Below are positions 2 to 15,889 of a stretch of 25,710 nt of DNA, in pieces. Both the position numbers and the translations under genes were made by a program. The notes under the pieces were generated by a model that was given only the letters and a program-made list of their open reading frames with translations, searched no databases and had not been told where the DNA came from. The DNA is from an uncultured delta proteobacterium. GTDB taxonomy: Bacteria; RBG-13-61-14; DRUE01. The stretch spans positions 1 to 25,710 of the forward strand of contig CAIYYW010000103.1 of assembly GCA_903930515.1 (NCBI GenBank), written 5' to 3'. How positions within the stretch are numbered: the stretch's first letter is position 1; each line of letters opens with the position of its first letter.

Positions 2-2425
2 TGGGAATACAAGAGGCCGGAGGTAAAACATCTGTTGGATAACCTGGCCCGGGAAAAGGAGGCGGAGGAGAGGATCTGTTATTTGGCGAACGCGCTGGAA
101 TCCAGTCATGAGCCGTTCGCCGCAGGCCTGCCGGACGGGAAATTGATTCTCTGGAACCGGGCGTTTGAAGCATTCAGCAGCTATTCCAACCATGAACTGC
201 GCTTGCTGAAATGGAATAAAGATTTGGTTCCTTCCGATTGGAACGGAACCCTGATCCACACCCTGGAAGAACTAAACCAAACCAATCAACCGCAATGGAT
301 TGAGATGGAATTTCTCCGAAAGGACGGCTCCCAGATTCCGATTGAGATCATCTTTCATCTAGTCACCGATTCCGAAGGAAAGGGTCAATATTACTACGCG
401 TTTATTAAAGATATTACGGATCGGAAGCGGGCGGAGAAGGCGCTCCGGGAGAGCGAGGAAAAATATCGGGAATTGATTCACAGCGTTAACAGTATTATTA
501 ACCGGACGGATAAAGAAGGTCGGATCACTTTTATGAATGATTTCGGGCTGAATTTTTTCGGATATTCGGAAGCGGAGGTGATCGGGAAGTCGATGCTGGG
601 GACCATCTTTCCGGAAACGGACGCGTCGGGCCAGAACCACGGGGAGAAGTTTAGAGAAACCATTTTGGATCCGGAAAAATGTCCGGACCACGTGAATGTA
701 AATGTTTGCCGGGAGGGCAAGCAGGTATGGATTTCCTGGAACATCAAGGCCCTTAATGACCCGGATGGTAATCTCAAGGAGTTTCTGGGAGTCGGGGTTG
801 ATATCACGGAGCTGAAGCTGGCGGAAGAGGCTCTTGCCACGGAGCGGGAGTGCCTGACAGTGACTTTGCGGTCAATCGGGGACGGCGTGATTGCCACGGA
901 TATGGCCGGCCGGATCAGCCTGGTCAATAAGGTGGCGGAGCGTCTTACGGGCTGGCCCCAGGAACAGGCCCTGGATCGGTCCCTGGAAGAGGTTTTTGAT
1001 ATTCGGAATGGCGAAACCGGGGAGCCCTGCGGAGAGGTCTTTAAGCGGGTCTTAGAGACCGGCACGGCCGTAACCATTGATCAATGCGGGATTTTAAAGG
1101 CAAAAGACGGCACGGGAAGGATGATCGCGGACAGTTGCGCTCCGATCCGGGACCGGACCAGCAAGGTGATCGGTCTGGTGTTGGTGTTCCGCGATATCAC
1201 GGAAAAGCAGAAGATGGGAGAGGAAATCCAGCGGACCCAGAAGCTGGAATCATTGGGGGTTATGGCCGGAGGGATCGCGCACGATTTCAATAATATTCTG
1301 ACCGCGATGATGGGCAATATTTCCCTGGCCCGGAGCGTGACTGAGACGGGAACTGATTTGTCGGAGTGTTTGGAGGACGCGGAAAAGGCTTGTGTCCGCG
1401 CCAAGGGCCTGACCCAGCAATTGCTCACCTTTGCCAAGGGCGGGATCCCGATAAAAAAGGTTATCCGGATCAAGGAGCTGATCCGGGAAGCGGCCACTTT
1501 TGCCCTGCCCGGATCCAAGAGCCGTCCGGAATTATACCTTGAAGAAAATCTCTGGCCGGTGGAGGCGGACCCCAACCAGATCGGACAGGTGATCCATAAC
1601 CTGGTGATCAACGCGGACCAGGCGATGCCCGAGGGGGGCGTGGTCAAGATTCACGGCCGTAATATCTTTGCCGGGGAAGAAGAATCCAAGCCGGGATCGC
1701 CTCTGACCCAGGGCCGGTATGTGAAAATCTCGGTGGAGGACCAGGGGATCGGGATCCCGGAAGAGTATCTGGCTAAAATTTTTGACCCGTTTTTCACGAC
1801 CAAGCAGAATGGGCGGGGCCTGGGCCTGGCCACCAGCTATTCCATCATCAAGAACCATAGCGGTTATCTCTCGGCGGAATCAAAGACCGGGGTGGGAAGC
1901 ATTTTTTATTTTTACCTCCCGGCCACGGACCAGCCGGCGCTTAATGAGAATACCAAGCGGGAAAAGCGGGTCCCGGGTTCGGGTAAAATCCTGGTGATGG
2001 ATGATGAAGCCTCGGTCCGGGCGGTTGCCGGGGCCATGCTCCGGAACCTGGGATACAGCGCGGAATTCGCCAAGGACGGGAACGAGGCGATCAAATTATA
2101 CCGGTCGGCGCGGGAATTCGGAAACCCGTTCAATATGATAATTATGGATTTGACCATTCCGGGAGGAATGGGCGGCAAGGACGCGATCAAGAAACTGCTG
2201 GAGATAGACCCGAAGGTGAAAGCGATCGTGAGCAGCGGTTATTCCACCGACCCGATTATGGCCGAGTATCAGAAATACGGTTTCCAGGGCGTGATCGTCA
2301 AGCCTTATGTGATTGAGGAATTCAGCCAGGTCCTGCGCCAGGTGAATAATTCCGGCCGGGAATCAGAGGAAAGCTCCCAAGGGTCGGGAGCTAATCCCGA
2401 GCCGGTCCGGATGACCGCGGGGTAA
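2..2425 (+). CDS. Multi-PAS hybrid sensor histidine kinase with C-terminal receiver domain (5' end outside window)
   Basis: The protein is a sensor kinase that autophosphorylates on His and passes phosphate to its own receiver Asp. The frame is open to the window edge; the first possible start is a TTG at 35, so the N-terminus probably lies outside. Numbered from that TTG, there are three PAS domains (about 20-135, 140-262 and 265-398). They end in PAC-type sequences such as [13 protein letters not shown] and [10 protein letters not shown] HisKA segment follows with the phospho-acceptor H416 in [11 protein letters not shown], then a HATPase with N526 ([10 protein letters not shown]), DQGIGIP and [10 protein letters not shown] receiver domain (about 660-775) carries D705 in [13 protein letters not shown] and a conserved Lys in VIVKPY. 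No transmembrane segment appears in the visible part, so sensing is probably cytoplasmic, though the missing N-terminus could change that. There is no HPt domain and no separate response regulator nearby. The stop codon directly touches the stop of convergent mobA. The signal sensed is unknown. Confidence 0.93.
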
Positions 2426-3067
2426 TCAAACTCCCGCCTGATCGCGCCGCTGATTCCGGATCAGTTCTTCCGCTTTCCTTAAATCTTCAACGGTATTGAT
2501 GTTGAAAAAAGAACGCAGGGCCGGATCCCGGCTTTGAATCTCCTCCGCGCCGATCTCCCGCACCCGGAGTTGGGCAAACATCTCCACCGGACGCTTCCGT
2601 CCCGCCCCGATCAAGCCTTCCAGGGCCGGCCGGCAGGCCGGCGCGTAGACCGCATGCAGGGGTTCAAAAAAATCCCCCGGTTTCGGGACCACCGCGTCAA
2701 AACCGTCCCGGACTTCCACCTGATACCGGATCAGCCCCTGGTTCAAAAAAGGCATATCGCATCCGCAGACAAACACCGGCCGGTTCAAAACCTTGAGCGC
2801 GGCGTGGATCCCGGACACCGGGCCGAGCGAAAGCGCCAAGTCGGGAAATATTTCCCCGTATTTCTCCAGGCCCTCCCTGGTCTGGCCGATCAAAACGATT
2901 TTTGAGAAAATACCTTTCAGATTTTCCAGGACATATTCAATTAAAGGTTTTCCGCAGAGCGGGATCAGGGCCTTGTCTCTGCCCATCCGTTTGCTCAATC
3001 CTCCCACCAACACCGCGGCGAAAACGGTGGGGTCAGGTCTTAACTTATGACTTGACGGACAATTCAT
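2426..3067 (-). CDS. mobA: Molybdenum cofactor guanylyltransferase (MobA family)
   Basis: MobA enzymes transfer GMP from GTP to molybdopterin to form the guanine-dinucleotide form of the cofactor in the cytoplasm. The 213-residue product has the family's nucleotide-binding signature near the N-terminus (residues 20-33: LVGGLSKRMGRDKA, a variant of LAGGxSxRMGxDKA). It also has GCDMPFL, the acidic metal-binding motif, and the GPVSGIHAAL segment. Length is normal. The ATG at 3067 has no clear Shine-Dalgarno sequence. The gene lies 53 bases after the M14 peptidase stop, so read-through from that unit is possible. No molybdoenzyme or other moa/moe gene is in the window. The gene ends exactly where the convergent kinase ends, leaving no room for a terminator. 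A related nucleotidyltransferase such as MocA is possible but less likely. Confidence 0.85.
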   Translation of the reverse strand: MNCPSSHKLRPDPTVFAAVLVGGLSKRMGRDKALIPLCGKPLIEYVLENLKGIFSKIVLIGQTREGLEKYGEIFPDLALSLGPVSGIHAALKVLNRPVFVCGCDMPFLNQGLIRYQVEVRDGFDAVVPKPGDFFEPLHAVYAPACRPALEGLIGAGRKRPVEMFAQLRVREIGAEEIQSRDPALRSFFNINTVEDLRKAEELIRNQRRDQAGV

Positions 3068-3097
3068 GGTTTTGAGGTTTCCGGGTGATCAAACATC

Positions 3098-3119
3098 GCG
3101 ACTGAAGTCGCTCGCACAA
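3098..3119 (+). repeat. Intergenic palindromic repeat, copy A
   Basis: GCGACTGAAGTCGC forms a 5-6 bp stem around a very small loop and is followed by the flank TCGCACAA. It matches 18 of 22 positions of copy B at 5896-5917, which is in the opposite orientation. The repeat sits between the M14 gene and mobA. No U-run follows the stem, so it does not look like a terminator. Confidence 0.5.
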
Positions 3120-3120
3120 T

Positions 3121-4359
3121 TTAATCCCGAGAATAGGAGGCGCTCAAATCAAGAGGGGATTCCGCGCCGACCTTTTTCCCCGGCTCTCCGGTCCAGTTCT
3201 CCTCGGCCGGCTTCCACTTAATCAGGCCCGGGTTCTGCTTGAGCTTGACCGCCCACTGGATCAGGTTGAGCGCGCCCGGCATCAGGTTGACGATTTCCCG
3301 ATCCAGGTAATAAACATTGTAAGTCCAGAAGATGACCGAGGCGGTTCCGTTCCTGGGGATCAGGGCGCGGGTCTCGGCGTGATTTCCGATCTCAATGGTC
3401 AGAGGGAGGATCCCGTATTTATAATAGATGTAATCGTCAAGCGATCCGATGGTGGGGTAGAGGTCAAACTCGGAATGAACCTGATATTGATCAAACTGAA
3501 GCTTTTGATACTCATCCGCCATTTGCCGGAACAATCCGTCATCCGCGGTTTTGTCCGGAAAGGTTCCGGGCGGGAACATAATCATCCCGCCGGTGGTGTG
3601 ATAGTTCATGGAAATAATGAAATGATGCTTTTCAATGAACGCGATCAAGGCCTGGCTCTCCGGCTCGCTGATCGGCTCCGGCCCGCGGTAGCTGGTCATC
3701 CATTTTTTCTCGGACCCGGCGGAATCCTTGAGCCGGTCCGGAGCCGAGGCCGGATATGGATAGTTCCGGTTCAGGTCCACCTTGTTCTGGTTCTTGCGGA
3801 CAAAGCCGGTAAAGCCGTATTTGGCCTGGGTCAAAGCCGCCCGATAGTTCCCGTCCGGGTTGAGGCTCGGGATCACATAGATGTCCGCGCCGTCCACCAA
3901 CCCGGTAAGGTAACAGTCGTTTCCGTATCCCTCCGCCAGTTTCCTGATCACGGCCATGCAGAATTCCGCCCCGGCAAGTTCCTGAGCGTGAATGTTTCCG
4001 GAAAAAAGAATCTCCGGCCGGTTTGCGCCGCCGCGGGAAATTTTTATTGCCTTTAAGTCTCTCCCCCCCAGGCTCTTCCCGTAAACCTCCAAGCTCAAGA
4101 GCTTGGGATATTTTTTCACCAGCTCGTCCAGTTCCGAGTTCAGCTCCTCCAAAGTATGATAGGGACGGAGCTTCCGGTTCATATCCTCCCGCCGCTTTTT
4201 CGCCTCCGCTTTCTTTTCCGTTTCGCGCTTCTTCTTCAACTGGTCCTGGTATTTTTTTATCTCAGGATCCAGCTTGTCCGAAGCAAGAACGCGCAGCGGC
4301 GGCAAGCCCAAGCAAAAGATCAGGATCCATCCGAGCATAGCGGCCCGAAAATTTTTCAT
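3121..4359 (-). CDS. Secreted zinc carboxypeptidase, peptidase family M14
   Basis: This is a metallocarboxypeptidase-like enzyme predicted to act outside the cytoplasm. Residues 1-27 form a signal peptide (basic start, WILIFCLGLPP core, VLAS before the likely cleavage). A highly charged Lys/Glu-rich helix follows at about 30-65 and probably acts as a spacer or coiled coil. The M14 domain spans about 66-370. It shows the zinc ligands H124xxE127 (NIHAQE) and H254 (MNYHTTGG), the substrate-binding pair N197/R198 in DLNRNYPYP, and the catalytic E323 in LPLTIEIGNH. All key residues are present, so the enzyme should be active; whether it cuts peptides or cell-wall peptides cannot be told. The ATG overlaps the stop of the upstream GNAT gene by four bases (ATGA). 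A GAGGGGG Shine-Dalgarno sequence lies about seven bases before the start, so the two are co-transcribed and translationally coupled. Confidence 0.9.
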   Translation of the reverse strand: MKNFRAAMLGWILIFCLGLPPLRVLASDKLDPEIKKYQDQLKKKRETEKKAEAKKRREDMNRKLRPYHTLEELNSELDELVKKYPKLLSLEVYGKSLGGRDLKAIKISRGGANRPEILFSGNIHAQELAGAEFCMAVIRKLAEGYGNDCYLTGLVDGADIYVIPSLNPDGNYRAALTQAKYGFTGFVRKNQNKVDLNRNYPYPASAPDRLKDSAGSEKKWMTSYRGPEPISEPESQALIAFIEKHHFIISMNYHTTGGMIMFPPGTFPDKTADDGLFRQMADEYQKLQFDQYQVHSEFDLYPTIGSLDDYIYYKYGILPLTIEIGNHAETRALIPRNGTASVIFWTYNVYYLDREIVNLMPGALNLIQWAVKLKQNPGLIKWKPAEENWTGEPGKKVGAESPLDLSASYSRD

Positions 4360-4901
4360 TGCGGAACCCCCTCAACTTTGTCCGGCACTTCCCGGCTCAT
4401 CGCCTTTTCCGGACAGGATAAAGGCGAAATATATTTTGTGCAATTGATGCATCCCAGATAAATCTTGGGATATATCTTGCGCTTGCTCACCCGCTTGAAG
4501 CCGAATTTCTTGAAAAACTTCGGATAAAAGGTCAGCACCAGGAGCCGGTCCGGCTCAAACTTCTCCAGTTTCCTGATCATCTTGTTCAGGAGCAGCCTCC
4601 CGATCCCGCTCCGCTGGCAGCGCTTGCGGATGGAAAAGCTCACGACCTCCAAAGTGCTCTCTTCCTTCAAATCCACCGTGGGCAGGACCTGCCAACTGAT
4701 CACGCCCTTGATCTTTCCCTTGTCCTCGTAAACCAGGAACCGGTCGAAATTGCGCCAGAGGTCCGGGTATGAGCGGGGCAACACCTCTTTCGGGTTCTCC
4801 CGGATCACCTTGTAAATCTGCGGGATGTCTTTCATCCGGGCCGGCCGAACCTGCCCGGTCAGCTTCTGGTTGAGCTTCTGTTTATTTTTTTTCGCCGGCA
4901 T
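4356..4901 (-). CDS. GNAT acetyltransferase resembling single-domain N-acetylglutamate synthase
   Basis: The 181-residue protein has a GNAT fold. Its acetyl-CoA pyrophosphate loop reads RKRCQRSGIGRLLLNKMI (the R/Q-x-x-G-x-G/A pattern). It is followed by the LVLTFYPKFFKKFGFKRV segment and a Cys-bearing tail with CINC and a third Cys. This combination (RSYPDLW, then LTFYP..FFKKFGF, then C-I-N-C) is what I recall of the stand-alone N-acetylglutamate synthases of delta-proteobacteria and relatives, which make N-acetylglutamate for arginine synthesis. That assignment rests on remembered family resemblance. No arginine genes are nearby; the partner gene is the secreted M14 peptidase. The ATG at 4901 lacks a Shine-Dalgarno sequence. 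A TTGACA box lies just upstream, so the mRNA may be leaderless. The first 15 or so residues are Lys/Asn/Gln-rich and possibly disordered. Confidence 0.75.
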   Translation of the reverse strand: MPAKKNKQKLNQKLTGQVRPARMKDIPQIYKVIRENPKEVLPRSYPDLWRNFDRFLVYEDKGKIKGVISWQVLPTVDLKEESTLEVVSFSIRKRCQRSGIGRLLLNKMIRKLEKFEPDRLLVLTFYPKFFKKFGFKRVSKRKIYPKIYLGCINCTKYISPLSCPEKAMSREVPDKVEGVPQ

Positions 4902-4910
4902 CAGGCATTA

Positions 4911-4939
4911 GATTTAGCAAGGCGGGATATAATTGTCAA
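4911..4939 (-). promoter_or_regulatory. Predicted sigma-70 type promoter of the GNAT-M14 unit
   Basis: On the minus strand a perfect TTGACA (4939-4934) is followed after 17 bases by TAAATC (4916-4911, 3 of 6 matches to TATAAT). A better TCTAAT hexamer lies at 4912-4907, but its 21-base spacing is unfavourable. Either choice puts the transcript start within about four bases of the ATG at 4901. Confidence 0.45.
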
Positions 4940-5032
4940 ATGGAAAAAGAGAATTTATGAATTTCCCCGGCCGAAAAACCTAACCGCCCTTTTCCCCTCC
5001 CCGCGCTTAAATGCGGGATCGGCGCAATTTTT

Positions 5033-5869
5033 TCAGAACTCAACCTTGATGATCGGCTTCAAGGCAAAGGCGAAGACGAACATCAGGATGATGAAGGGCC
5101 AGATCCAGTAGGTTTTCCAGCCGAAGAAATCGGCGTCCCCTTCCGGGTATTTTATCTCAATCTTTTGGATCCCGCTTGCTGGATCCAGCTTGGCCAGGGT
5201 CGGATGCCAGAAATTAACCGAAAAGCCGTTGGCCGTTACCGGATTGAAACGGGGATTGCCTTTGGCGTCCGCAAACACCCTAACTTCAACCGGCGGTTTT
5301 CCCTGCGCGAAAATCTTGACCGGCAGACTGCCTTTGGCCTTGACCTGGATTTGATAGTCAATTTCCCTGAGCCCCCCGCCTATATCATCCGGCTCCTGGA
5401 TTCGCAGGGGCGGGTATTTCAATTCCAGGTTTGGAGGCAGTTCCAGCCTGATCCCGTTCATCCAATCCGACATTTGCCCGGAAACTTTCAGCTTGAGCAA
5501 AAAGGCCTCGCCCGGCTCAAAGGCGCGGAAGTGATAGCGATGCTCGCAATTGACCAGGAAGATCATCACCGGCAAAAACATCACCACCAGCGGGATCAGG
5601 GCGAACCCGAGATATTTCCCGCCGTTCCCGAAAATCCCGGCTTGCGCCTTCAGGATCAAAACAGGATCGTCTATATAAAGCCAGACTTCCACGAAATGCG
5701 CCTTGATTTTTTCCTTGGCTTTCTTGATCCCGTCCTGGCTGGAAGTGTATTTATAGATCACCAGCGCGAACACCGTGACCAGCAGGGTGGCAAAGGCCAT
5801 CCCATACCCGGACGCGAGTCCCGCGAAGGGCGCGAAGATCAGGTCAATTATTTTTTGAAACTCAATCAA
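5033..5869 (-). CDS. Three-helix membrane protein with YidC/Oxa1/EMC3-like layout and large extracytoplasmic domain
   Basis: I do not recognise a named family with certainty. The 278-residue protein has TM1 at about 20-41, a Lys-rich loop at 45-85 (KKAKEKIKAHFVEV, then YIDDPVLILKAQ), and TM2 at 86-107. A beta-rich domain of about 140 residues (108-250) follows, then TM3 at 252-270 with a short basic C-terminus. By the positive-inside rule the Lys-rich loop and C-terminus are cytoplasmic and the beta-rich domain is outside. The pattern K-x-K...DDP...Q...P....P around TM2 recalls the coiled loop and second helix of YidC/Oxa1 and archaeal DUF106/EMC3 insertases; this is inference only. The start is a TTG at 5869, directly preceded by AAT and an in-frame TAG, so it cannot extend further. 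It is the last gene after the AP pair and the small RHH-like gene, 62 bases downstream of the latter, with palindrome copy B in the gap. Confidence 0.75.
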   Translation of the reverse strand: MIEFQKIIDLIFAPFAGLASGYGMAFATLLVTVFALVIYKYTSSQDGIKKAKEKIKAHFVEVWLYIDDPVLILKAQAGIFGNGGKYLGFALIPLVVMFLPVMIFLVNCEHRYHFRAFEPGEAFLLKLKVSGQMSDWMNGIRLELPPNLELKYPPLRIQEPDDIGGGLREIDYQIQVKAKGSLPVKIFAQGKPPVEVRVFADAKGNPRFNPVTANGFSVNFWHPTLAKLDPASGIQKIEIKYPEGDADFFGWKTYWIWPFIILMFVFAFALKPIIKVEF

Positions 5870-5895
5870 ATTCTATCGTCTCTCTTTTTCCATTA

Positions 5896-5917
5896 CTGTG
5901 CGCGCGACTTTGGTCGC
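5896..5917 (-). repeat. Intergenic palindromic repeat, copy B (inverted relative to copy A)
   Basis: The core at 5902-5919 is GCGCGAC, TTTG, GTCGCGC: a perfect seven-base stem with a four-base loop. Read on the minus strand, 5917-5896 aligns with 3098-3119 at 18 of 22 positions, including the CGCACA flank outside the stem. No T-run follows it, so a simple terminator is unlikely. Confidence 0.5.
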
Positions 5918-5931
5918 GCTTGGCTGCATTT

Positions 5932-6126
5932 TTACGAAATGTAGCCAAGCCCCTTCAGCTTCTTCTTGATCTCATCTTCCGAGTCCGATCCTTCCAGCTT
6001 GGACACTTCCTTCTCCAGCACATACTCCACAAACTCGTCCATAGAAGAATACCCGGCCAGCTCCGCGAATTTTTTCACCCGGTCATAAATCTCCTTGTTG
6101 ATCTTGATCTTCTCTCCGCCAAACAT
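5932..6126 (-). CDS. Small ribbon-helix-helix-like protein
   Basis: This 64-residue protein starts with a short strand (EKIKINKEIYDR) and two predicted helices (RVKKFAELAGY and MDEFVEYVLEKEVSKLEG). That is the order expected of a CopG/Arc-type ribbon-helix-helix unit, which dimerises and often binds DNA. The tail, DEIKKKLKGLGYIS, resembles an LxxLGY ending I recall at the C-termini of some sulfatases and other AP-superfamily proteins; this is memory, not a search. The ATG at 6126 is preferred over the in-frame GTG at 6153 because AAGGGGG (6139-6133) lies six bases before the ATG. The gene is close behind the Tat-type AP-superfamily gene (16-43 bases depending on start), so it is co-transcribed with it. 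Function unknown: autoregulator, or a small partner of the neighbouring proteins. Confidence 0.8.
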   Translation of the reverse strand: MFGGEKIKINKEIYDRVKKFAELAGYSSMDEFVEYVLEKEVSKLEGSDSEDEIKKKLKGLGYIS

Positions 6127-6132
6127 TTTCTT

Positions 6133-6139
6133 CCCCCTT
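6133..6139 (-). promoter_or_regulatory. Shine-Dalgarno sequence deciding the start of the small RHH-like gene
   Basis: AAGGGGG lies six bases before the ATG at 6126 and inside the longer GTG-initiated reading. It favours the shorter 64-residue protein. Confidence 0.6.
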
Positions 6140-6169
6140 GCCGGCGCAGACACCCTGGTCCGCGCGCCT

Positions 6170-8194
6170 TTAAAAGATAGGTTTCCCTTCCATATCCTCC
6201 GGGACCTTGATCCCGAATTCCTGGAGCACGCTCGGGCCGATGTCCCAGATCCCCGGGTCGGGCTTGATAATTTTCTTGTTGGCCAAAAGCGAGGCCGGGA
6301 CTTCGGTCGGGTCTATGCAATGGTCCCCGCTCCAGGGGTCCAGATTGTCCACGACCCAATCCTTGGGATACTTCCCGAGCGTGGTTTCCCAACTGCCGCG
6401 GTATCCCCTCCGGTACCCGATGATCATATCCGGAGAGACCGTTCCCACGAATTTTCCCCTGAACACCTCCTTGGCGATATAAGCGTTCTTGATCGGATGC
6501 TCCCCGGTCTTGGGATCAACCGCCTCTTCCAGCTTCCGCTTCAACTCTTTCAGCAGCCAGTCTTCCTGCTCCGCCTTCACGATCCCCATCCCCTCCCGGC
6601 CCTGTAAATTCAGGTAAAGACCGTTGATGCCCAAGCCATAGACGCGGGTCCTTCCCCAATCCACATTGTCAAAATATTCGGTCTTATCGCGTTTGGCCGG
6701 GTCCAGGAGATATGTATATCCGTTGTCCAAGAGCCAGGAATTGAGGTTGAAGGCGCGGTTGAACCCGGCGAACCCGTGGTCGGACATCACGATCAGGGTG
6801 GTGTCGCGATCAATTTTTTCCAGGGCCATCCCCAGCGCCTGATCCATCTGCCGGTAAAGCCGTCCGACCGGGTCTTCCAGTCCGGATTGAAGCGCCTGTT
6901 GATGGTTGTGATTGTTGGGATCAATGTATCTCCAGAACATATGCTGGCCCAGGTCCAAGGTGGAGAAATAGAAAAACAGGAATCCGTCCTTGAACCGGTC
7001 CAGGTGCCAGCGGTAGGCGCGCATCCAGTCCGCGGTAACCATCTGGCTCTGGGTCCAGAATTCCAGGTCGTTCAAAATTCCATAGGTCAGGGCCTTGGTA
7101 TCCTCGGCCATCCCCTGGGTGTAGAAAAAGCCCAGGTCCCGCGTCAGCGCCTCGCCATATTCGTCCGGGTTGAAAATCGGCAGCGCCGGATTTTTCGGGT
7201 CAAGGTTGATCGGAGAAACATAGAGCTTGAAGTCCGGCCGCAGCTCCTTGAGATAAAACCTGGCGATGCCGTAAAGGTTTTTCAGATGGGGCAGGAGCGG
7301 GAATTTCAGTTCCACCCAGTCGCTCCATCCCCCCTGCTTCAAAAAAATCTCCTGTCCCGAAACCGATATTTTGGCGACCGGGTTTTCCGGATCTATAAAA
7401 ACCTGGAAGGGTATTTTGAGTTGCTCATAATGGTAAGTTTTCCCCCCCTCGCTTTCGTCAAAGGGCTTTTGCGGGTCCAGCCGGAAGGTATTGGGCGGTC
7501 CGTAAAGGAAATTTTGAGCGATATTGTTTTTTACGAAAGTCGGATACACTTCTCCGCCGGTGACATCCTTGGCGTTCTCGGGCGGGTTGTCGGTGTAATA
7601 GGAAAAAGTGCCGTAGGTGCCGAGGATGTCGGGGGTGCCCATTCCGGAAAACTCGTTGGCCTTTCCGGCAAAGGGCGGGAAGTTGCTGGGAGATCGGTAA
7701 ATGGTCGCGGATAGTTTGGCGTCGGTGAGATAGTTCCAGAACGGAGTGCCGTGGACCAAATTCTTGATCTCGCCGCCTTTGAATGGAACCATCCATTGGC
7801 CTAGTCTCAGCTTTCCCCCTTCCGGCTCGTAGGTCTTGCTGGTTGATAGATAGAGGTCGGCGGGAAAATTTTTCGGGCCGCGATGGATGAAGTCAAAAAT
7901 GCCGGTTTTGCCCGGGTTCTGCCCGGTGATGAAGGATGCCCAGGCCACCGGGCTTTGAGCCGGGATGGTGGTGGCCATATGCCGGAAATCCCCGCCCGAG
8001 GAGATCAGCCGCTGGAAATTGGGCATCTGTCCCTGATCCAGGAACCCCTGGAGCAGGCCCGGGTCCATCCCGTCAATCCCGAGCACGATCACCTTCTTCC
8101 TGCCGCCGTTTCCGCCGAAACTCCTTGCCGGGATTGAAAGCGCGAACCCCAGACCCGCGCCGGTCTTGATGAAACCTCTCCGATCTATCTTCAT
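6170..8194 (-). CDS. Tat-exported AP-superfamily phosphohydrolase/phosphomutase (COG3379 type)
   Basis: The 674-residue protein belongs to the type I phosphodiesterase / alkaline-phosphatase superfamily. Its N-terminus is a twin-arginine signal (DRRGFIKTGAGLGFALS, then IPARS), so it should be exported folded, probably with metals bound. Core features are metal ligand D41 in VLGIDGMDP, the nucleophile region PAQSPVAW with S81, a D-x3-H element in STLDLGQHMFW, the D-H pair in VMSDHGFAGF, and the last His in GDHCIDP. All superfamily metal positions are present, so it should be active on a phosphate or sulfate ester; the substrate is unknown. Its ATG overlaps the stop of the paralogous gene upstream by four bases (ATGA). 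Relative to that paralogue it has lost the N-terminal membrane anchor and gained the Tat signal. The two probably work in the same compartment on related substrates. Confidence 0.88.
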   Translation of the reverse strand: MKIDRRGFIKTGAGLGFALSIPARSFGGNGGRKKVIVLGIDGMDPGLLQGFLDQGQMPNFQRLISSGGDFRHMATTIPAQSPVAWASFITGQNPGKTGIFDFIHRGPKNFPADLYLSTSKTYEPEGGKLRLGQWMVPFKGGEIKNLVHGTPFWNYLTDAKLSATIYRSPSNFPPFAGKANEFSGMGTPDILGTYGTFSYYTDNPPENAKDVTGGEVYPTFVKNNIAQNFLYGPPNTFRLDPQKPFDESEGGKTYHYEQLKIPFQVFIDPENPVAKISVSGQEIFLKQGGWSDWVELKFPLLPHLKNLYGIARFYLKELRPDFKLYVSPINLDPKNPALPIFNPDEYGEALTRDLGFFYTQGMAEDTKALTYGILNDLEFWTQSQMVTADWMRAYRWHLDRFKDGFLFFYFSTLDLGQHMFWRYIDPNNHNHQQALQSGLEDPVGRLYRQMDQALGMALEKIDRDTTLIVMSDHGFAGFNRAFNLNSWLLDNGYTYLLDPAKRDKTEYFDNVDWGRTRVYGLGINGLYLNLQGREGMGIVKAEQEDWLLKELKRKLEEAVDPKTGEHPIKNAYIAKEVFRGKFVGTVSPDMIIGYRRGYRGSWETTLGKYPKDWVVDNLDPWSGDHCIDPTEVPASLLANKKIIKPDPGIWDIGPSVLQEFGIKVPEDMEGKPIF

Positions 8195-10293
8195 CTCTTC
8201 CTTAACTCCTCCAGCTCCGCGTCGCTCAGCAGCGGTTTCCAGTCCATATATGCCGGGACCTTAAGATCGAACAACCTCAAAATAGTCGGCGCCAAATCCC
8301 CGATCCAGGCGTTGGTTTGCTTCAGCTTCACGCTGCTGAAGAGCACGCCCGGGACCAGTTCCGGATCAATGCAATGGTCCCCGCTCCAGGACTTGTTGTT
8401 GTCCGAAAAAACCTTCCCGCTCACCGCCCCCAGGGTGCCGTCCCAGTCCATCCGATATCCCACATTGTACCCGACCATCACCTCCGGCGCGTTCTCCACA
8501 TACGGCCCGGACAAACTTTCATAAGCGTCATAAGCCTTGCTCACCGCGACCTCCCCGGTGTCCGGATCTTTCAGACCGGTGAGCTTGTCGCAAAGTTCCT
8601 TCCGGAGCTTCGCCGCCTCCCCCGGATCCACGACCCCGTTCTTCTCGCGGCCCTTGAGGTTCAAGTATATCCCGGACAGGCCCAAGGCATAGGCTTTGGT
8701 TTTGGACCAGTCCACATCTTTGAACATCTCCGCAGAGCCGGAATCGCTCTTGCAAGCCAGGTATCCATTCTTCCAGAGCCAGGAATTGAGGTTGAGGCCC
8801 CGGCGGAAGCTCTTGAACCCGTGATCGCTCATCACCAGAAGGAGATCGCGCTTGCCGAGTTTGGCCAGGACTTTTCCCAGCAGTTCGTCCGAGCGGGTAT
8901 AAACCTCTTCAATCGCGCCCCGGTATTTTTGGGCCTCTGCGCTGTGATAGAGCGGATGCGCCGGGTCCAATCCTCGGAAAAAGGTATGCTGGATCCGGTC
9001 GGTATGATCAAACACGATCGCGAGCAACCCTTTCCTGGTCCGGCTCAGGCAATGGAAAAAGGTCTGCTCCCGCTCCCGGTAATAATCCCAGGTCTGCTTC
9101 AAGAACGCTTCTTCGTCAATCACCCGCTCGTTCAAGGCCCAGGTGTCTTCGGCCAGGCCGAGCGTGGAAAACGGCCCGAGCAGCTTGGCCAGGTAAACGG
9201 AATAAAATCCCGGATGAGAGACCGGCATCGCCGGGTTTTCCGGGTCAAGGTTGAGCGGGGTGAGATACAACTCGGGAGATTCTCCGCCCTTGATCAGCAG
9301 GAATTTACCCAGGCCGGAAACCTTGATCCCGAGTCCGGCATTGAATTTAAACCGGATCCATTCCGAATATTTTTTCTCACCCAGCCGGACCTTCCGGTCC
9401 GGAAGGACCATCAGGAACCCGCCCTTCTTTTCCGGCCGGAGTTCAAAATTTATCCGGAGCTCCTCGCGGTTTTTGCTCAAGGTATTTTCCGGGCCCGGAA
9501 GGTATCCCTTCCAGTTGTTCCCGGATTTCTCCAGGGTCAATTCCAACCCGCCGGTATGTTTCCCGCCCGCGCTTTCCGCCCGCCAGAAGGTGAAGCTGCC
9601 TTGCGAGCCGCGCAAGTCCGGCACGCACATCGCGCTGAGCATCGCGCCGTAGAATTTTTCCGGCGGGAAGGTGATGGGGACGCGGATGATGTGGCTGAAG
9701 ATCCAGTGGTCCCCCAGGATTTTCCAGAAAGTCCGGCTCTTCCGCAAGAGCTGGATCTCCGGCTTCTTTAGCGGGATCAAATATTTTCCCAGCTTCAGGG
9801 TCTTTTGCGGGTCGCGGATCCGGGTGGAACTCAAGACCGGGAGATAGGAGTTGCGGTCCGGGGTAAGGAAGTCAAAGATATTATGCTTGCCCGGATTCAC
9901 CCCGGTGGCGAAGCAGGACCAGGCCACCGGACTCATCGCCGGGAGCGAGGTTTTCAGCCTTTGGAAAGTTCCCTGCTCGGATAGTTTTTTAAAATTGGGA
10001 AGCTTGCCCTCGGCCATCCATTTCTCGGCCAGCATCGGGTCCAAGCCGTCCAGGCCGAGCACAATCACCCGTTTCACAAAGGGCTTATTCCCCTGCTTTT
10101 TCACCTGGATGAACCGGATTACGAACCGGACCGGGAAGATCAATACCGACAGGATCGCGGCGATGATGGCGAAGAAGAAAACCATAAACGATCCCAGGAT
10201 GGCGAAGCCGGCGCCCGGGCCGATGTAGGCATTGGCCGGGAAGCTCAAGAGCAAGGAGATCAGCAAGGCGATTCCCAAGGATTTCTTGGACAT
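8191..10293 (-). CDS. Membrane-anchored AP-superfamily phosphohydrolase/phosphomutase (COG3379 type)
   Basis: This 700-residue paralogue of the next gene begins with a hydrophobic signal-like segment (about 5-20), then AYIGPGAGFAILG and a second membrane helix (about 30-55), then basic residues. The topology is uncertain: it is membrane-anchored, but which face carries the catalytic domain depends on whether the first helix is cleaved. The catalytic part has D82 in VLGLDGLDP, S121 in PAMSPVAW, the D...H element in VFDHTDRIQHTFF, the D-H pair in VMSDHGFKSF, and the final His in GDHCIDP. The YIGPGAG motif between signal and anchor recurs, in my memory, in similar membrane proteins of environmental bacteria. 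The gene has its own promoter-like boxes (10303-10330) and no Shine-Dalgarno sequence, and it leads the run 8191, 6170, 5932, 5033. Substrate unknown. Confidence 0.87.
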   Translation of the reverse strand: MSKKSLGIALLISLLLSFPANAYIGPGAGFAILGSFMVFFFAIIAAILSVLIFPVRFVIRFIQVKKQGNKPFVKRVIVLGLDGLDPMLAEKWMAEGKLPNFKKLSEQGTFQRLKTSLPAMSPVAWSCFATGVNPGKHNIFDFLTPDRNSYLPVLSSTRIRDPQKTLKLGKYLIPLKKPEIQLLRKSRTFWKILGDHWIFSHIIRVPITFPPEKFYGAMLSAMCVPDLRGSQGSFTFWRAESAGGKHTGGLELTLEKSGNNWKGYLPGPENTLSKNREELRINFELRPEKKGGFLMVLPDRKVRLGEKKYSEWIRFKFNAGLGIKVSGLGKFLLIKGGESPELYLTPLNLDPENPAMPVSHPGFYSVYLAKLLGPFSTLGLAEDTWALNERVIDEEAFLKQTWDYYREREQTFFHCLSRTRKGLLAIVFDHTDRIQHTFFRGLDPAHPLYHSAEAQKYRGAIEEVYTRSDELLGKVLAKLGKRDLLLVMSDHGFKSFRRGLNLNSWLWKNGYLACKSDSGSAEMFKDVDWSKTKAYALGLSGIYLNLKGREKNGVVDPGEAAKLRKELCDKLTGLKDPDTGEVAVSKAYDAYESLSGPYVENAPEVMVGYNVGYRMDWDGTLGAVSGKVFSDNNKSWSGDHCIDPELVPGVLFSSVKLKQTNAWIGDLAPTILRLFDLKVPAYMDWKPLLSDAELEELRKR

Positions 10294-10302
10294 TAAATTG
10301 AT

Positions 10303-10330
10303 AGTATAATTGCCAATCCGCTTTTTTCAA
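10303..10330 (-). promoter_or_regulatory. Predicted sigma-70 promoter of the AP-superfamily run
   Basis: TTGAAA (10330-10325, 5 of 6 matches) and TATACT (10308-10303, 5 of 6) are separated by 16 bases. Only nine bases separate the -10 box from the ATG at 10293, so the expected transcript would start about 2-4 bases before the start codon. Confidence 0.6.
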
Positions 10331-10344
10331 AGCCGGGTGATGGC

Positions 10345-10399
10345 GCAGGCTTCCAGCCTGCAAGCAGCGGTCCCGGCTAATTGTGGCGCAGACTTCTCC
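10345..10399 (+). repeat. Intergenic palindrome plus a degenerate direct repeat
   Basis: GCAGGCT, TCC, AGCCTGC at 10345-10361 is a perfect seven-base inverted repeat. The preceding sequence TGGCGCAGGCTTC (10341-10353) recurs with one change as TGGCGCAGACTTC at 10384-10396. The 181-base gap between the acyl-CoA synthetase and AP genes thus holds the AP promoter plus this element. It resembles short dispersed palindromes of environmental genomes, from memory. Confidence 0.4.
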
Positions 10400-10474
10400 G
10401 GCGGATTCGCGGGACGAATTCAATTGACGCCATGCGCGCAGGCAGGATTCCCGGGCCAAAAAAGGTCTGGGCGG

Positions 10475-12301
10475 TTATTCTTCCGGCGGATACATTTCCT
10501 CAATCAGGTTTTGGTATTTTTTCACAATCACCCGCCGTTTTCTTTTCAGGCTGGGGGTGAGTTCTCCGCCTTCCTCGGTGAAGGAGTGGTCAATCAGGCG
10601 GAATTTTTTTATCTGCTCGTACCGGGCCAGCCGCTGATTGGCCAGGTCCACCCGGGACTGGATCAAGGCGACCACCTCCGGATGCTTGATCAGATCGGCA
10701 TTGTCCTTGAACTGGATTCCCTTCCCCTTGGCCCAGGCGGTCAGGGCCTGGAACTCGGGCACCACCAGGGCGGAGACGAATTTCTGTCCGTCCCCGACCA
10801 GGGTGACCTGCTCAATATAGGGGTCGGTGTTAAATTCTCCCTCAATCGGCTGGGGCGCCACATATTTCCCGCCGCTGGTCTTGAACAATTCCTTCTTCCG
10901 GTCCGTAATCGTGAGATAACCTTCCTCGTCCAGAAAACCGATGTCGCCGGTTTTGAAAAAGCCGTCCTCGGTGAAAATCTCCTTGTTGGCTTCGGGATTA
11001 TTCCAGTATCCTTTCATCACCTGGGGCCCCTTGACCAGAATCTCTCCGTCCTCCGCGATCTTTTCAATCACGCCCAAAAGCGGTTTTCCGCAGGTGCCCA
11101 GCTTGCAGTTCTTGGGGGTGGACGCGTTGATGATCGGGCTGGTCTCGGTCAGTCCGAATCCCTGGAACAGGTTGATCCCCATTGCCCCGAAGAATACGAT
11201 CAGGTCGGGGTTGATCGGACCGCCCCCGGTGGAGCATAACCTCAAGCGGTCCAGGCCGGCCTTTTTCCGGATCAGGTTGAAAAGCGGCTTGGTCATTTTC
11301 TGCTTGAGCCGCAAGGAAACCGGCACCGGCTTGTTTTCGTTTTTAAGCAGGAACGCTTTGCTCCCGACCGCAATCCCCCATTTGAAATATTTCTGTATAA
11401 TCGGAGGCCTCTCCCGGAGCAGGGTATTGATCTGGACATAAAGTTTTTCCCACAGACGCGGCACCGAGTTCATCACCGTGGGTCTGATCTTCTGCAGGCC
11501 CCACTTGATCTCATCGCTCTGGAGCGAGTCCAGCACCGCGAGCACCCCGGGCACATAGCCGGCTCCGAGCAGGTCCGCGGAGAACCCGTAGGAATGACAC
11601 ATCGGGAGATGGGCGAGCCAGACATCCTCGGGTGTGAAATTCATCTCCGAGGTCACGCTGCGCTGACTCACCACATTGGAATGAGAAAGCATCACTCCCT
11701 TGGGCCGGCCGGTGGTGCCGGAGGTGTAGATCAGGGCCACCAGGTCGTCTGGAACCGTCTTCTCCACCAGCTTCTCCACCTCCGAATCCAGGCGCCGGTT
11801 CTTTTGGCCCAACTCCATAAGCTCGTCAAAGCCGATCACGATCGGGTCCGGCTTCTGGTCCATCTGATCAAACACGATCACCTTTTCCAGGGTCTTCACC
11901 CGGTCTTTGACCGCCAGAACTTTCGGAAGCTGTTCCTTGCCGCAAAAGCAGAACCGTGCCCCGGAATCGTGAAGAATCCACCAGACATCGTCCTCCTTGC
12001 TGGTGGGATAGATCGGGACAAAGGTCCCGCGCAGACAGATCGGAGTGTGGGCCGCGAAGATCCAGCGCGGCCGGTTGGGGGAAAAAACCGCGGCCCGGTC
12101 AAATTCCTTGAACCCGAGCGTGAGCAGGGCGTTGCACAGGTCGCGGATGATCCGCTCCCCTTCTCCCCAAGTTAAAGTATGAAGCTGGTCGGTCCGTTTC
12201 CCCTGCCGGTCGTAGCGGGAGATCAGATAGGGCTTGTCCGGGTATTTGAGCGCGTTATTGAGCGCGGTTCCGGATACGGTCTGGTCACTGAAAGTTTTCA
12301 T
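10475..12301 (-). CDS. Long-chain acyl-CoA synthetase (AMP-forming ligase)
   Basis: The enzyme activates a fatty acid with ATP and CoA through an acyl-adenylate, in the cytoplasm or at the membrane surface. The 608-residue protein shows the P-loop-like motif at 191-207 (IYTSGTTGRPKGVMLSH). It also has GFGLTETSPI at 381-390, TGDIG with D453, and the hinge region TDRKKELFKTSGGKY (467-480). A C-terminal Lys-rich stretch (PSLKRKRRVIVKKY) probably contains the catalytic Lys. Length and the YVAPQPIE sequence fit the FadD15/FAA1-like long-chain branch better than short-chain acetyl-CoA synthetases. The ATG at 12301 is one base from the rimO stop, and its AAGGGG Shine-Dalgarno sequence lies inside the end of rimO, so translation is coupled. 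It is the last gene of the barrel-rodA-rimO run. Chain-length preference cannot be read from the sequence. Confidence 0.9.
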   Translation of the reverse strand: MKTFSDQTVSGTALNNALKYPDKPYLISRYDRQGKRTDQLHTLTWGEGERIIRDLCNALLTLGFKEFDRAAVFSPNRPRWIFAAHTPICLRGTFVPIYPTSKEDDVWWILHDSGARFCFCGKEQLPKVLAVKDRVKTLEKVIVFDQMDQKPDPIVIGFDELMELGQKNRRLDSEVEKLVEKTVPDDLVALIYTSGTTGRPKGVMLSHSNVVSQRSVTSEMNFTPEDVWLAHLPMCHSYGFSADLLGAGYVPGVLAVLDSLQSDEIKWGLQKIRPTVMNSVPRLWEKLYVQINTLLRERPPIIQKYFKWGIAVGSKAFLLKNENKPVPVSLRLKQKMTKPLFNLIRKKAGLDRLRLCSTGGGPINPDLIVFFGAMGINLFQGFGLTETSPIINASTPKNCKLGTCGKPLLGVIEKIAEDGEILVKGPQVMKGYWNNPEANKEIFTEDGFFKTGDIGFLDEEGYLTITDRKKELFKTSGGKYVAPQPIEGEFNTDPYIEQVTLVGDGQKFVSALVVPEFQALTAWAKGKGIQFKDNADLIKHPEVVALIQSRVDLANQRLARYEQIKKFRLIDHSFTEEGGELTPSLKRKRRVIVKKYQNLIEEMYPPEE

Positions 12302-12302
12302 T

Positions 12303-13643
12303 TCATCCCCTTAAAATTTTTTCCCCGATTAAATCCAGCCCCTGGCTGTTGATGATCCGGACGGGGTAAAATTTACCCGGCTCAAATTTCCCGGTCAGTT
12401 GGACTACGCCGTCAAGTTCATAGGCCTGACCCTGGCTCCGGCCTTGAGATTCGTACCCCAGATCACTTCCGCCATCCACCAATACTTCCAATACCTTATT
12501 TATCTTAGCCTGACTTTTCGCTTCTGCCAACTCCAGCCAGAACATTTCCAAATCTTCCTTACGTTCCCGCGCGACCCGTTCCGGGATCTGCCCCTTCAGC
12601 CTGCCCGCCTGGGCCTGCGCTTCCCTGGAAAAGCTGAACACCCCCAGCCATTCAAATCCGGCTTCTTCAATAAAATCCAATAATTCCTGAAAGTCAATTT
12701 CACGCTCGCCCGGAAAACCGACCATTGCGGTCCCGCGCAAACAGGCCTCCGGGATTTCGGCGCGGATTTTTTCCACCAATCCCCGGATGGTTTCCGCGTT
12801 CGCTTTCCGTCCCATCGCTTTCAGCACCCGGTCGGAGATATGCTGGAAGGGCAGGTCTATATATTTGCAAATCCTTTTTTCGGTCCGGATCGCCTCCAAA
12901 AGCTCATCCGAAATCCCTTCGGGGTTGAGGTAAAAGAGCCTCAGCCAGGGGATTGAGGTTTCAGCCAGCAGCCGCTCAATCAGCTCCGGCAGGCTGGAAT
13001 CAATGTCCTTGCCGTATTCGCATAAGTCCTGGGCCACCAGGTTCAATTCCCTGACCCCGGAGCGCTCCAGAAATTTAGCCTCCGTGAGCAGCTTGTCCAA
13101 AGGCTCGCTCCGGAACCGGCCCCGGATCTTCGGGATCACGCAGAAGCGGCAGCCCTGGTCGCATCCCTCGGAGATTTTCAAATAGGAGAGATGCCGGGGG
13201 GTGGTGATGAGCCGGGGAGCGGGCTTGGACGAGGCTTTAAGTCCGCGGCCGAGATGTAGGGAGATTTTTTTATCCAACTGATCCATTTCCGAGAATTTCA
13301 CCCAGAGATCCACTTCGGGGATTGCTTGGGCCAGCTCCTTCTGGTTCAGTTCCACCATACATCCGGCGACGATGATGTTTTTTATCTCGCCCTTCTTCTT
13401 CCGCTCCACCGCAAAAAGGATTTGCTCAATGGTTTCTTGTTTAGCCGGCCCGATGAAGCCGCAGGAATTGATCAGGAGTATTTCCGCGCCCTGCCCGGAT
13501 GGAACCGGCTTTAAGCCCTTGCTTTTCAAGATCGCGAGCGCGCGCTCGGTATCCACCAGGTTCTTGTCGCAGCCCAGGCTGATGAATTCAATGGTTCCGG
13601 CTTTCGGTTTCGGCCTAGAAGACATATCTTCGCATCCCGACAT
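12303..13643 (-). CDS. rimO: Ribosomal protein S12 methylthiotransferase RimO
   Basis: RimO is a radical-SAM enzyme that methylthiolates an aspartate of ribosomal protein S12. The 446-residue product has an N-terminal cluster domain with C25 (SLGCDKN), C61 (NSCGF) and C95 (AGCMVE). The radical-SAM triplet C161xxxC165xxC168 (SEGCDQGCRFCVIPKIRGR) and a C-terminal TRAM-type domain (about 380-446) follow. SLGCDKNLVDTE and CVIPKIRGRFRS fit RimO better than the tRNA enzyme MiaB. The listed ATG at 13643 overlaps the end of rodA by 29 bases. A second in-frame ATG at 13625 gives a protein six residues shorter and an 11-base overlap. Neither has a strong Shine-Dalgarno sequence, and the shorter start is equally plausible. 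Confidence 0.92.
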   Translation of the reverse strand: MSGCEDMSSRPKPKAGTIEFISLGCDKNLVDTERALAILKSKGLKPVPSGQGAEILLINSCGFIGPAKQETIEQILFAVERKKKGEIKNIIVAGCMVELNQKELAQAIPEVDLWVKFSEMDQLDKKISLHLGRGLKASSKPAPRLITTPRHLSYLKISEGCDQGCRFCVIPKIRGRFRSEPLDKLLTEAKFLERSGVRELNLVAQDLCEYGKDIDSSLPELIERLLAETSIPWLRLFYLNPEGISDELLEAIRTEKRICKYIDLPFQHISDRVLKAMGRKANAETIRGLVEKIRAEIPEACLRGTAMVGFPGEREIDFQELLDFIEEAGFEWLGVFSFSREAQAQAGRLKGQIPERVARERKEDLEMFWLELAEAKSQAKINKVLEVLVDGGSDLGYESQGRSQGQAYELDGVVQLTGKFEPGKFYPVRIINSQGLDLIGEKILRG

Positions 13644-14712
13644 TGAGGGTCAGGCCGAGCATCATAAACAAGACCAGCAGGTGGGAGCCGCCGTAGCTGA
13701 AAAAAGGAAGGGGCACGCCGATCACGGGGAACCATCCCGAGATCATCAGCAGGTTGACGATGAAATGAGCGAAGATAACCATTACCGTGCCCAGCGCCAT
13801 CATCACTCCCAGCCGGTCCTTGGACTCGGCCGCGATCCAGATGCCCCGGATCAGCACTAACAAATAAAGGAGCAAGACCGGGACCACCCCGAGCAGGAAT
13901 CCCCATTCCTCGGCCCAGACCGAGAAGGTGAAATCGGTATGCTGTTCGGGCAGGTACCGGAGCATATTTTGCGAGCCTTTTCTCCAGCCCTTGCCGAAGA
14001 CGCCTCCGGACCCGATCGCGGTTTTGGACTGGAGCAGGTTGTAGCCGGCCCCCAGCGGGTCCTTATTGGGATAGATAAAAGTCAGGATCCGGTTTTTCTG
14101 ATGAGGCTTGAGCACATATTTCCAGCCCGCGGGAACGCTCAGGATGACCAGGATCGCCAGCAGCGCCACCAGCTTCCAGCGGATGCCGATAAAGATCAGG
14201 AGCCCGGCTCCGAACATCAGGAAGATCAGGGTGGTCCCCAGATCCGGCTCCAGGGCGGTCAGTCCGGCCGGGATCAAAATCAGCAGGAGCGGGTAGAGGG
14301 TTTCCCGGAGCCCCATCGGCCGGGAGGATTCGCGCTTCTGATAAAAGCGCGCCAGCATCATCACCACCGCCAGCTTGGCCGGCTCGCTCGGCTGGAGGCG
14401 GAAGCCGTGGAACACCAGCCAGGATCGGGAATGATGTATTTCCGGCCCCAGGAACAGGACGGCTCCCAGCAGGCCGACGCAGGCCAGATAAAAAGGGATG
14501 GCCAGGGCCTGGAAGCGGTGATAGTCAATCGCCATCATCACCGACATCGCGATCAGGCTGACCCCGAACCAGAGCAACTGATCCTTCCAGACCCCGCTCT
14601 CGCCGGCGGAGCTTCGGAGGTTTAAGATTCCGAGCAGGAACAGCGACCCGATCAGGATGATGAAGACTAAATCCAGGTTCTTGACCAGCCGTCGCTCAAT
14701 CGCGATGATCAT
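13615..14712 (-). CDS. rodA: Rod-shape peptidoglycan polymerase RodA (SEDS family)
   Basis: RodA is the integral-membrane SEDS glycosyltransferase that polymerises lipid II during side-wall growth with a class B penicillin-binding protein. The 365-residue product has about ten hydrophobic segments. SEDS hallmarks are visible: LQPSEPAKLAVVMMLA, ALEPDLGTTLIFL with the essential Asp, and AIGSGGVFGKGW followed by YLPEQHTDFTFSVWAEEWGF. The C-terminal PFFSYGGSHL segment is also typical. The absence of a cell-division context and the VFGKGW/LPEQHTDF wording favour RodA over FtsW. The ATG at 14712 is one base from the stop of the upstream barrel gene and lacks a clear Shine-Dalgarno sequence, so it depends on coupling. 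No PBP2, mreB, mreC or mreD gene lies beside it, which is unusual for rodA. Confidence 0.92.
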   Translation of the reverse strand: MIIAIERRLVKNLDLVFIILIGSLFLLGILNLRSSAGESGVWKDQLLWFGVSLIAMSVMMAIDYHRFQALAIPFYLACVGLLGAVLFLGPEIHHSRSWLVFHGFRLQPSEPAKLAVVMMLARFYQKRESSRPMGLRETLYPLLLILIPAGLTALEPDLGTTLIFLMFGAGLLIFIGIRWKLVALLAILVILSVPAGWKYVLKPHQKNRILTFIYPNKDPLGAGYNLLQSKTAIGSGGVFGKGWRKGSQNMLRYLPEQHTDFTFSVWAEEWGFLLGVVPVLLLYLLVLIRGIWIAAESKDRLGVMMALGTVMVIFAHFIVNLLMISGWFPVIGVPLPFFSYGGSHLLVLFMMLGLTLNVGMRRYVF

Positions 14713-14713
14713 T

Positions 14714-15217
14714 TTAGAACAGGTAGTTCACTCCCAGGAACAGCCCGACATAAATCTCTTCCGAGATGTTGAAGAGCAAATTCCCGTCCAGGGAAAGGTT
14801 GTCGTTGAGCTTGAATTCCATACCGCCCCCCACCGGGAACAGGTAGGTGGTCTTCTGGTCCCCGTTGAACAAGTGCTCATCCTGGAACTGGACAAAGCCG
14901 ATCCCGACCTCGCCGTAGGGACGGACCACTTTGCTGCCGGACAGGACCGCGTTGTATTTCACCATCCCGGCCACGCCGAAAATATGATCCTTGTCCTTGA
15001 ACGCATACTGGAGCAGGGGAGACACCGAGATTTCATCCGTGATGTAGTAATTGACATTCGCCTGAATTCCGTAGAGGGTGGGGTCCTCCGTGATCCCCAA
15101 GCCACCGCCCACCGTCCAGTGTCCCTGCCGCTCCAAAAACTTTTGCGCGAACACCGGCCGGGAAAAAAGCAAGGCGGCCAACCCCATTCCGATCAAGATC
15201 AGCTTCTGCTTCCGCAT
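14714..15217 (-). CDS. Predicted outer-membrane beta-barrel protein
   Basis: The 167-residue protein begins with a signal peptide (MRKQKLILIG... to PVFAQ). It continues with alternating, glycine- and aromatic-rich strands: GHWTVGGGLGIT, GIQANVNYYI, RPYGEVGIGFVQF, and a final VGLFLGVNYLF ending in Phe. A terminal Phe strand is the usual outer-membrane insertion signal. It looks like a small eight-stranded barrel of the OmpW/OmpA-like or OMP_b-brl type; the exact family is unknown. The ATG at 15217 is chosen because AAGGAGG (15230-15224) lies six bases before it. A longer reading from 15262 would overlap the preceding gene and move the signal peptide inwards. It follows a second barrel gene by 20 bases and precedes rodA by one base. 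Confidence 0.8.
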   Translation of the reverse strand: MRKQKLILIGMGLAALLFSRPVFAQKFLERQGHWTVGGGLGITEDPTLYGIQANVNYYITDEISVSPLLQYAFKDKDHIFGVAGMVKYNAVLSGSKVVRPYGEVGIGFVQFQDEHLFNGDQKTTYLFPVGGGMEFKLNDNLSLDGNLLFNISEEIYVGLFLGVNYLF

Positions 15218-15223
15218 CTTCTT

Positions 15224-15230
15224 CCTCCTT
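15224..15230 (-). promoter_or_regulatory. Shine-Dalgarno sequence deciding the start of the second barrel gene
   Basis: AAGGAGG with a six-base spacer before the ATG at 15217. It fixes the start at the signal peptide rather than at 15262. Confidence 0.75.
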
Positions 15231-15237
15231 TGTCCGA

Positions 15238-15873: not shown

Positions 15874-15889
15874 CTTTTCCTTTCCACTT

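Follow-up and report, generated by a model that had tools for sequence, protein, structure and literature searches.

A conserved cassette of two NPP-fold enzymes, a short tailed protein and a three-helix Oxa1-superfamily protein in bacteria, and its connection to sulfate activation

The four genes and the conservation of the cassette

The window examined here is the whole stretch of 25,710 nucleotides of contig CAIYYW010000103.1 (assembly GCA_903930515.1) from an uncultured delta proteobacterium; it is contig C103 of a 3.65 Mb assembly (G000) in 401 contigs that is 93.48% complete. Its minus strand, to which all features below belong, carries a cassette of four genes that we term APtm (8191..10293), APtat (6170..8194), SMALL (5932..6126) and MEM (5033..5869). 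APtm codes for a 700 aa protein with a signal peptide, a YIGPGAG motif, one transmembrane (TM) helix, and a catalytic domain of the alkaline phosphatase (AP) superfamily with the NPP fold and a β-rich insert. It is joined through an ATGA overlap (8191-8194) to APtat, whose 674 aa product is a paralogous enzyme with a twin-arginine translocation (Tat)-like N-terminus, predicted to be exported. SMALL, 64 aa from a conserved ATG, is ribbon-helix-helix (RHH)-like and ends in an LGYI tail, and MEM (278 aa) is a three-TM protein of the Oxa1 superfamily, similar to the archaeal YidC and EMC3 proteins. A first-pass annotation made by a model from the sequence alone had described these four reading frames, their common direction and the overlap of the two long genes, all of which were recovered, and had proposed that they form one unit.

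The proposal of a unit is borne out by gene content and order, which are kept across phyla far beyond chance. SMALL was found in 8 of the 60 genomes of a first survey, with AP paralogues and MEM around it in the seven loci inspected. When 84,980 species genomes were scanned with a SMALL profile, 250 loci were obtained; in the best 80 of these SMALL is immediately preceded by an AP protein and immediately followed by MEM, in the order AP-SMALL-MEM on one strand wherever the contig is long enough. These 80 loci, none of them from a named cultured isolate, cover about ten lineages, which by the submitters' titles include Acidobacteriota, Aminicenantes, Eisenbacteria, Gemmatimonadota, Calditrichota, KSB1, Schekmanbacteria, Sumerlaeota, delta lineages and one Methylococcaceae bin. 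In many Aminicenantes loci (L031, L035, L049, L057, L079, L082 and others) MEM is directly followed by a gene for a protein of about 371 aa (MKIE.FKMERMQS...) that looks aminotransferase-like by eye.

So as not to anchor the comparison on SMALL alone, each profile was also run separately on 386 genomes. MEM was detected in 35 of them, and these same 35, but none of the other 351, have strong SMALL matches (Fisher p 1.5e-50), a figure weakened by the fact that such tests, here and below, ignore shared ancestry, though the carriers span more than 20 families. Weak SMALL-like paralogues occur in three further genomes. In 34 of the 35 carriers MEM is the direct neighbour of SMALL, with the order reversed, MEM before SMALL, in two genomes of one family (G103, G234). 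APtm-type proteins are present in all 35 carriers and in 28 other genomes, as expected of a broad family. Rare co-occurrence of the families, or mostly unrelated neighbours for the small and membrane proteins, was accordingly seen neither in the 80 loci nor in the 386 genomes of the neighbourhood comparison that the first-pass annotation had suggested. APtat is missing from the cassette in four loci (L044, L066, L068, L070), and the core is therefore APtm-SMALL-MEM.

No description of this gene combination was found in the open-access literature, including that on COG3379, on PF01663 with sulfation, and on clusters of sulfotransferase, APS kinase and AP-superfamily genes, in keeping with the earlier statement that no function is known to have been described for it.

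NPP-fold enzymes and a three-helix membrane protein

Both long proteins match the Pfam family PF01663 (Phosphodiest) well above its curated cut-off of 23 bits, APtm with 106.6 bits (E = 2.6e-30) and APtat with 115.1 bits (E = 6.8e-33), which agrees with their first assignment as AP-superfamily paralogues. The bi-metal site (D, D/H, D/H, H) and the Ser/Thr nucleophile are complete in both. In APtm the active-site residues are D82, S121, D432, H436, D490, H491 and H640, and these catalytic residues are invariant in 45 homologues except for S121 (43 S, 2 T); in APtat all seven (D41, S81, D414, H418, D472, H473, H625) are invariant in 8 homologues. A profile search of the PDB with APtm alone gave weak, short sequence matches, and a fold search was used instead. 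The AlphaFold2 model of APtm (pLDDT 91.1) has as its nearest solved folds ENPP5 (Z 27.6) and XacNPP (Z 27.3), the likeness extending over 340-350 residues at Z of about 27 and including the seven metal and nucleophile positions. In contrast to these NPP/ENPP proteins, APtm is membrane-anchored with a predicted cytoplasmic catalytic domain, contains the large β-rich insert, has Ser rather than Thr as the nucleophile, and is encoded together with a paralogue, APtat, in one operon. Judged from these matches, APtm and APtat are NPP-like metalloenzymes of the AP superfamily, with nucleotide phosphodiester hydrolysis as their putative activity. A nucleotide pyrophosphatase of human placenta, going by the title of a 1983 report by Yoshida cited in PMC8038981, is said to degrade 3'-phosphoadenosine 5'-phosphosulfate (PAPS).

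The YIGPGAG motif of APtm (10207..10227) and the membrane segment had both been noticed earlier, and the motif, as Y[IV]GPGAG, is present in all 55 full-length APtm homologues; in 52 of these it directly follows a signal-peptidase-like A/L/V-x-A site. This motif is predicted to be the new N-terminus after cleavage of the signal peptide, on the periplasmic side of the membrane. Downstream of it in the homologues come the TM helix and a lysine/arginine-rich stretch, which by the positive-inside rule places the catalytic domain of APtm, as a prediction, in the cytoplasm. At least one of the two enzymes therefore probably works inside the cell, and the envelope substrate envisaged in the first-pass annotation can be kept only as conjecture. 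The Tat signal assigned to the second enzyme stands as far as the twin-arginine motif of its MKIDRRGFIK start is concerned, although the match to PF10518 (E = 0.044) is below the cut-off of that family. With this start here and lipoprotein-like N-termini in some homologues (e.g. in L012), APtat is probably exported. APtm-like proteins with YYIGP-type N-termini are also encoded in three loci (L114 at 1260-6319, L115, L116) from genomes of 1.3-1.7 Mb that have neither MEM nor SMALL; in L114 the gene comes after those for CysD, a TauE-type permease and CysN.

The description of MEM as YidC-like proved right and can be sharpened. A MEM profile built from 76 members, compared with the PDB, recovered as its sole significant match the archaeal YidC MJ0480 (5c8j; E = 3.7e-10, the next match having E = 1.3). 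The alignment runs from TM1 through the cytoplasmic hairpin into TM2, and a second stretch of weaker similarity lies at TM3. Chance likeness of hydrophobic segments was ruled out by 2000 shuffles made segment by segment and by a reversed copy; the MJ0480 fragment scores 40.2 bits as against at most 17.3 in the shuffles. The Pfam family hit by most members is EMC3_TMCO1 (PF01956), which 36 of the 76 match at E<=1, with a best value of 3.8e-7. As the MEM of the window has no match to PF01956, and none of 290 bacterial genomes has one above the gathering cut-off, MEM is best described as a superfamily relative rather than as a member of that family; as a genome-wide search model PF01956 was rejected, being too weak to detect MEM in most carriers. 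On these profile comparisons, MEM belongs to the archaeal/EMC3-TMCO1 branch of the Oxa1 superfamily.

The three helices and large outer domain first read from the sequence are reproduced in the AlphaFold2 model of MEM (pLDDT 92.6), which has TM1 at residues 20-42, a hairpin from 45 to about 85, TM2 up to 112, a β-rich domain at 113-253 and TM3 at 256-274 (modelled helices 20-42, 45-64, 69-112 and 256-274). Lysines or arginines lie at the cytoplasmic ends of the helices, so that the protein is predicted to be N-out and C-in. The outer domain (5111..5533), inserted between TM2 and TM3, gave generic, weak immunoglobulin (Ig)-like matches in the Foldseek and VIA-align searches, with Z up to 6.8. 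No Oxa1-superfamily chain is among the fold matches listed, a list that is filled by the Ig-like domain and says nothing on the TM core. With archaeal YidC/DUF106 proteins (MJ0480, Ylp1) and EMC3/TMCO1, MEM shares three TM helices, the cytoplasmic hairpin between TM1 and TM2 and, as predicted from charge distribution, the N-out orientation. It differs in being bacterial, in being encoded with AP enzymes, and in the Ig-like domain of about 140 residues, at the position occupied by a short peripheral helix in the archaeal proteins and by a TM hairpin in bacterial YidC (PMC8675477). Given that all 35 carriers also possess an ordinary YidC, the idea that MEM stands in for YidC was rejected, and MEM is a second, specialised Oxa1-superfamily protein.

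The LGYI tail and the link to sulfate activation

The RHH character of SMALL is weak by sequence, with 15 of 50 family members matching RHH_1 (best E = 1.6e-4) and the protein of the window giving no RHH match. Its most conserved part is the C-terminal tail (SDSEDEIKKKLKGLGYIS, 5935..5982), where an acidic, amphipathic stretch leads into LGY[I/L/M]; G59-Y62 are invariant in 50 homologues. The same tail is found on APS kinase, CysD (KLRSLGYM), PF01663 proteins, PF00884 sulfatases and an RHH-like paralogue that heads several operons. In the loci read it ends 91 of 1219 called genes, most of them SMALL itself, whereas shuffled proteins give an expectation of 0.1. Irrespective of position in the genome, APS kinase matches that include the tail are present in 23 of the 35 carriers versus 2 of 38 non-carriers (p 2.6e-8). 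A 139 aa APS-kinase remnant in L119 (11556-11975), adjoining ATP sulfurylase and the cassette, has no recognisable P-loop and still ends in LGYLEE, suggesting that it is the tail that counts in this case and arguing against SMALL as a simple DNA-binding regulator. The regulatory role first assigned to SMALL is hence not supported; a tail that recurs on APS kinase, CysD and AP-superfamily enzymes rather suggests that it acts as an adaptor or in docking.

The neighbourhoods of the cassette favour a connection with sulfate. In five loci (L012, L013, L024, L026, L037) it lies in an operon of the order ATP sulfurylase-AP458-APS kinase-AP436-APtm-APtat-SMALL-MEM, where AP436 and AP458 are further AP proteins; L042 and L058 have the same operon without AP458, ATP sulfurylase and APS kinase follow downstream in L040 and L068, and CysDN is present at L019, L025 and L087. 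In one carrier (G222, L121) MEM is split from the rest of the cassette and has CysD, CysN and AP436 as neighbours. Sulfotransferase genes of the PF13469/PF00685 type occur in 12 loci, and PF13469 is modestly enriched in carriers (20 of 35 versus 11 of 38 others, p 0.014).

This connection is not visible in the window because, in the same genome, ATP sulfurylase, AP458 and an LGYI-tailed APS kinase are encoded on another contig (C148), with AP436 at one end of C314. On C148 (L110:125-3359, 8276-16836) these three genes lie near three sulfatase-like proteins and a multi-TM PF01663 protein, all of them LGY-ended. Neither a CysH-type reductase nor Sulfotransfer_1/3 (PF00685, PF13469) was matched in this genome, which is about 93% complete and in which other sulfotransferase families and dissimilatory enzymes were not searched for. 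Including it, eight carriers (G000, G001, G002, G104, G191, G206, G265, G383) combine a tailed APS kinase with no detected CysH or Sulfotransfer_1/3, in assemblies that are incomplete. The loci are partly comparable to those for PAPS-dependent capsule sulfation: PMC11641403 reports a sulfated capsular polysaccharide of Vibrio sp. KMM 8419 whose gene cluster includes sulfotransferases. Unlike the loci described there, no glycosyltransferase block is conserved with the cassette, the core of which is formed by NPP-fold enzymes, an Oxa1-type protein and a tailed RHH protein.

A proposed membrane module downstream of sulfate activation

We tentatively propose, while granting that it may well prove otherwise, that the four genes code for one inner-membrane module downstream of sulfate activation, which would act on activated sulfate or on sulfated or nucleotide-linked intermediates. 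In the cytoplasm, ATP sulfurylase or CysDN would make adenosine 5'-phosphosulfate (APS) and the tail-bearing APS kinase would convert it to PAPS. APtm, which is anchored in the membrane and whose catalytic domain is predicted to face the cytoplasm, and the exported APtat might then act on the activated sulfate or intermediate on the two membrane faces. SMALL would be an RHH-type, probably dimeric adaptor; given that its tail matches that of APS kinase, both may dock on the same partner. MEM may insert or hold APtm as a dedicated insertase or scaffold, its Ig-like domain being predicted on the same side of the membrane as the invariant YIGPGAG of APtm. The substrate is the weakest point of the proposal; the phosphorylated or sulfated compound first suggested is still plausible.

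Several observations weigh against this proposal. A sulfate-activation gene lies within the locus in only 8 of the 33 loci of at least 18 kb, many and indeed most Aminicenantes loci have no sulfate gene nearby, and in the present genome these genes are outside the window. APS kinase has no match in 5 of the 35 carriers and none with the tail in 12, while about 15 carriers, the present genome among them, are without PF13469. The absence of APtat from four cassettes counts in the same direction. Moreover, the tail is also carried by sulfatases and NPP proteins that are predicted to have a signal sequence or to be membrane-anchored, and a single docking partner in the cytoplasm cannot account for all of these occurrences. 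The Aminicenantes loci and the carriers without APS kinase would be accommodated by phosphodiester chemistry on an envelope component, such as hydrolysis or transfer of a phospho-head-group, with sulfate genes as frequent but functionally dispensable neighbours. NPP folds of the AP superfamily do act mostly on phosphodiesters; we nevertheless consider this unlikely, given that the association with tailed APS kinase and the operon order ATP sulfurylase-AP-APS kinase-AP repeat across distant lineages, that MEM keeps CysDN and AP436 beside it where it has split off, and that sulfotransferases occur in 12 loci.

The NPP fold, the sulfotransferases near these same 12 loci and the position of the cytoplasmic AP436 and AP458 next to ATP sulfurylase and APS kinase would also suit nucleotide scavengers, which hydrolyse 3'-phosphoadenosine 5'-phosphate (PAP), APS or excess PAPS and so protect the cell from by-products of sulfation by other enzymes. 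This appears rather improbable, as it leaves unexplained both the joint conservation of a membrane anchor, an exported paralogue and an Oxa1-type protein, and the carriers with no detected PF00685/PF13469 sulfotransferase. A bolder version of our proposal, which we hold to be decidedly improbable as well, draws on the eight carriers with tailed APS kinase and no detected CysH or Sulfotransfer_1/3: the NPP-fold enzymes might themselves use PAPS, as a sulfate-transferring class unrelated to P-loop sulfotransferases. An LGYI-tailed adaptor and a bacterial Oxa1-type insertase of three helices, dedicated to this task, would take part in their assembly at the membrane. Very unlikely, in our view, is a merely regulatory and unspecific co-location, in which SMALL would bind DNA as an RHH repressor of the operon and MEM would serve as a spare insertase of general use. 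Similarity at the level of RHH_1 and RHH_8 and the insertase superfamily of MEM are compatible with such roles, but conservation in SMALL is highest in the tail and not in the ribbon, MEM never occurs without SMALL in the 386 genomes, and YidC is already present in every carrier.

Elsewhere in the window, the neighbouring genes for a GNAT protein, an M14 peptidase and an acyl-CoA synthetase were considered as parts of the cassette and rejected, since they do not recur in the 80 loci except for the GNAT gene in the same genus. The window also codes for three tandem paralogues, each of about 170 aa and with a REE..H pattern like that of rubrerythrin (16519-18324), a carboxypeptidase-regulatory-like domain followed by a long low-complexity C-terminus of K/G/D/N repeats (20938-21624), and an RCC1-like repeat protein (GGVKCWG..LGNGT..) that is cut by the contig end (25129-25710).

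The three-TM insertase core has been placed in archaea and the endoplasmic reticulum and the five-TM core in bacteria, with the ancestral form called unclear (2025 review, PMC7618853), and no report of a bacterial three-TM insertase was found in the open-access literature. A bacterial family that has the three-TM architecture and can still be matched to an archaeal protein is new material for the question of the ancestral insertase form. In the cassette, a short C-terminal tail shared between proteins meets NPP-fold enzymes and sulfate activation in one operon in about ten bacterial lineages, many of them without cultured members, and this convergence suggests that a membrane step of sulfur or envelope metabolism has so far gone undescribed.

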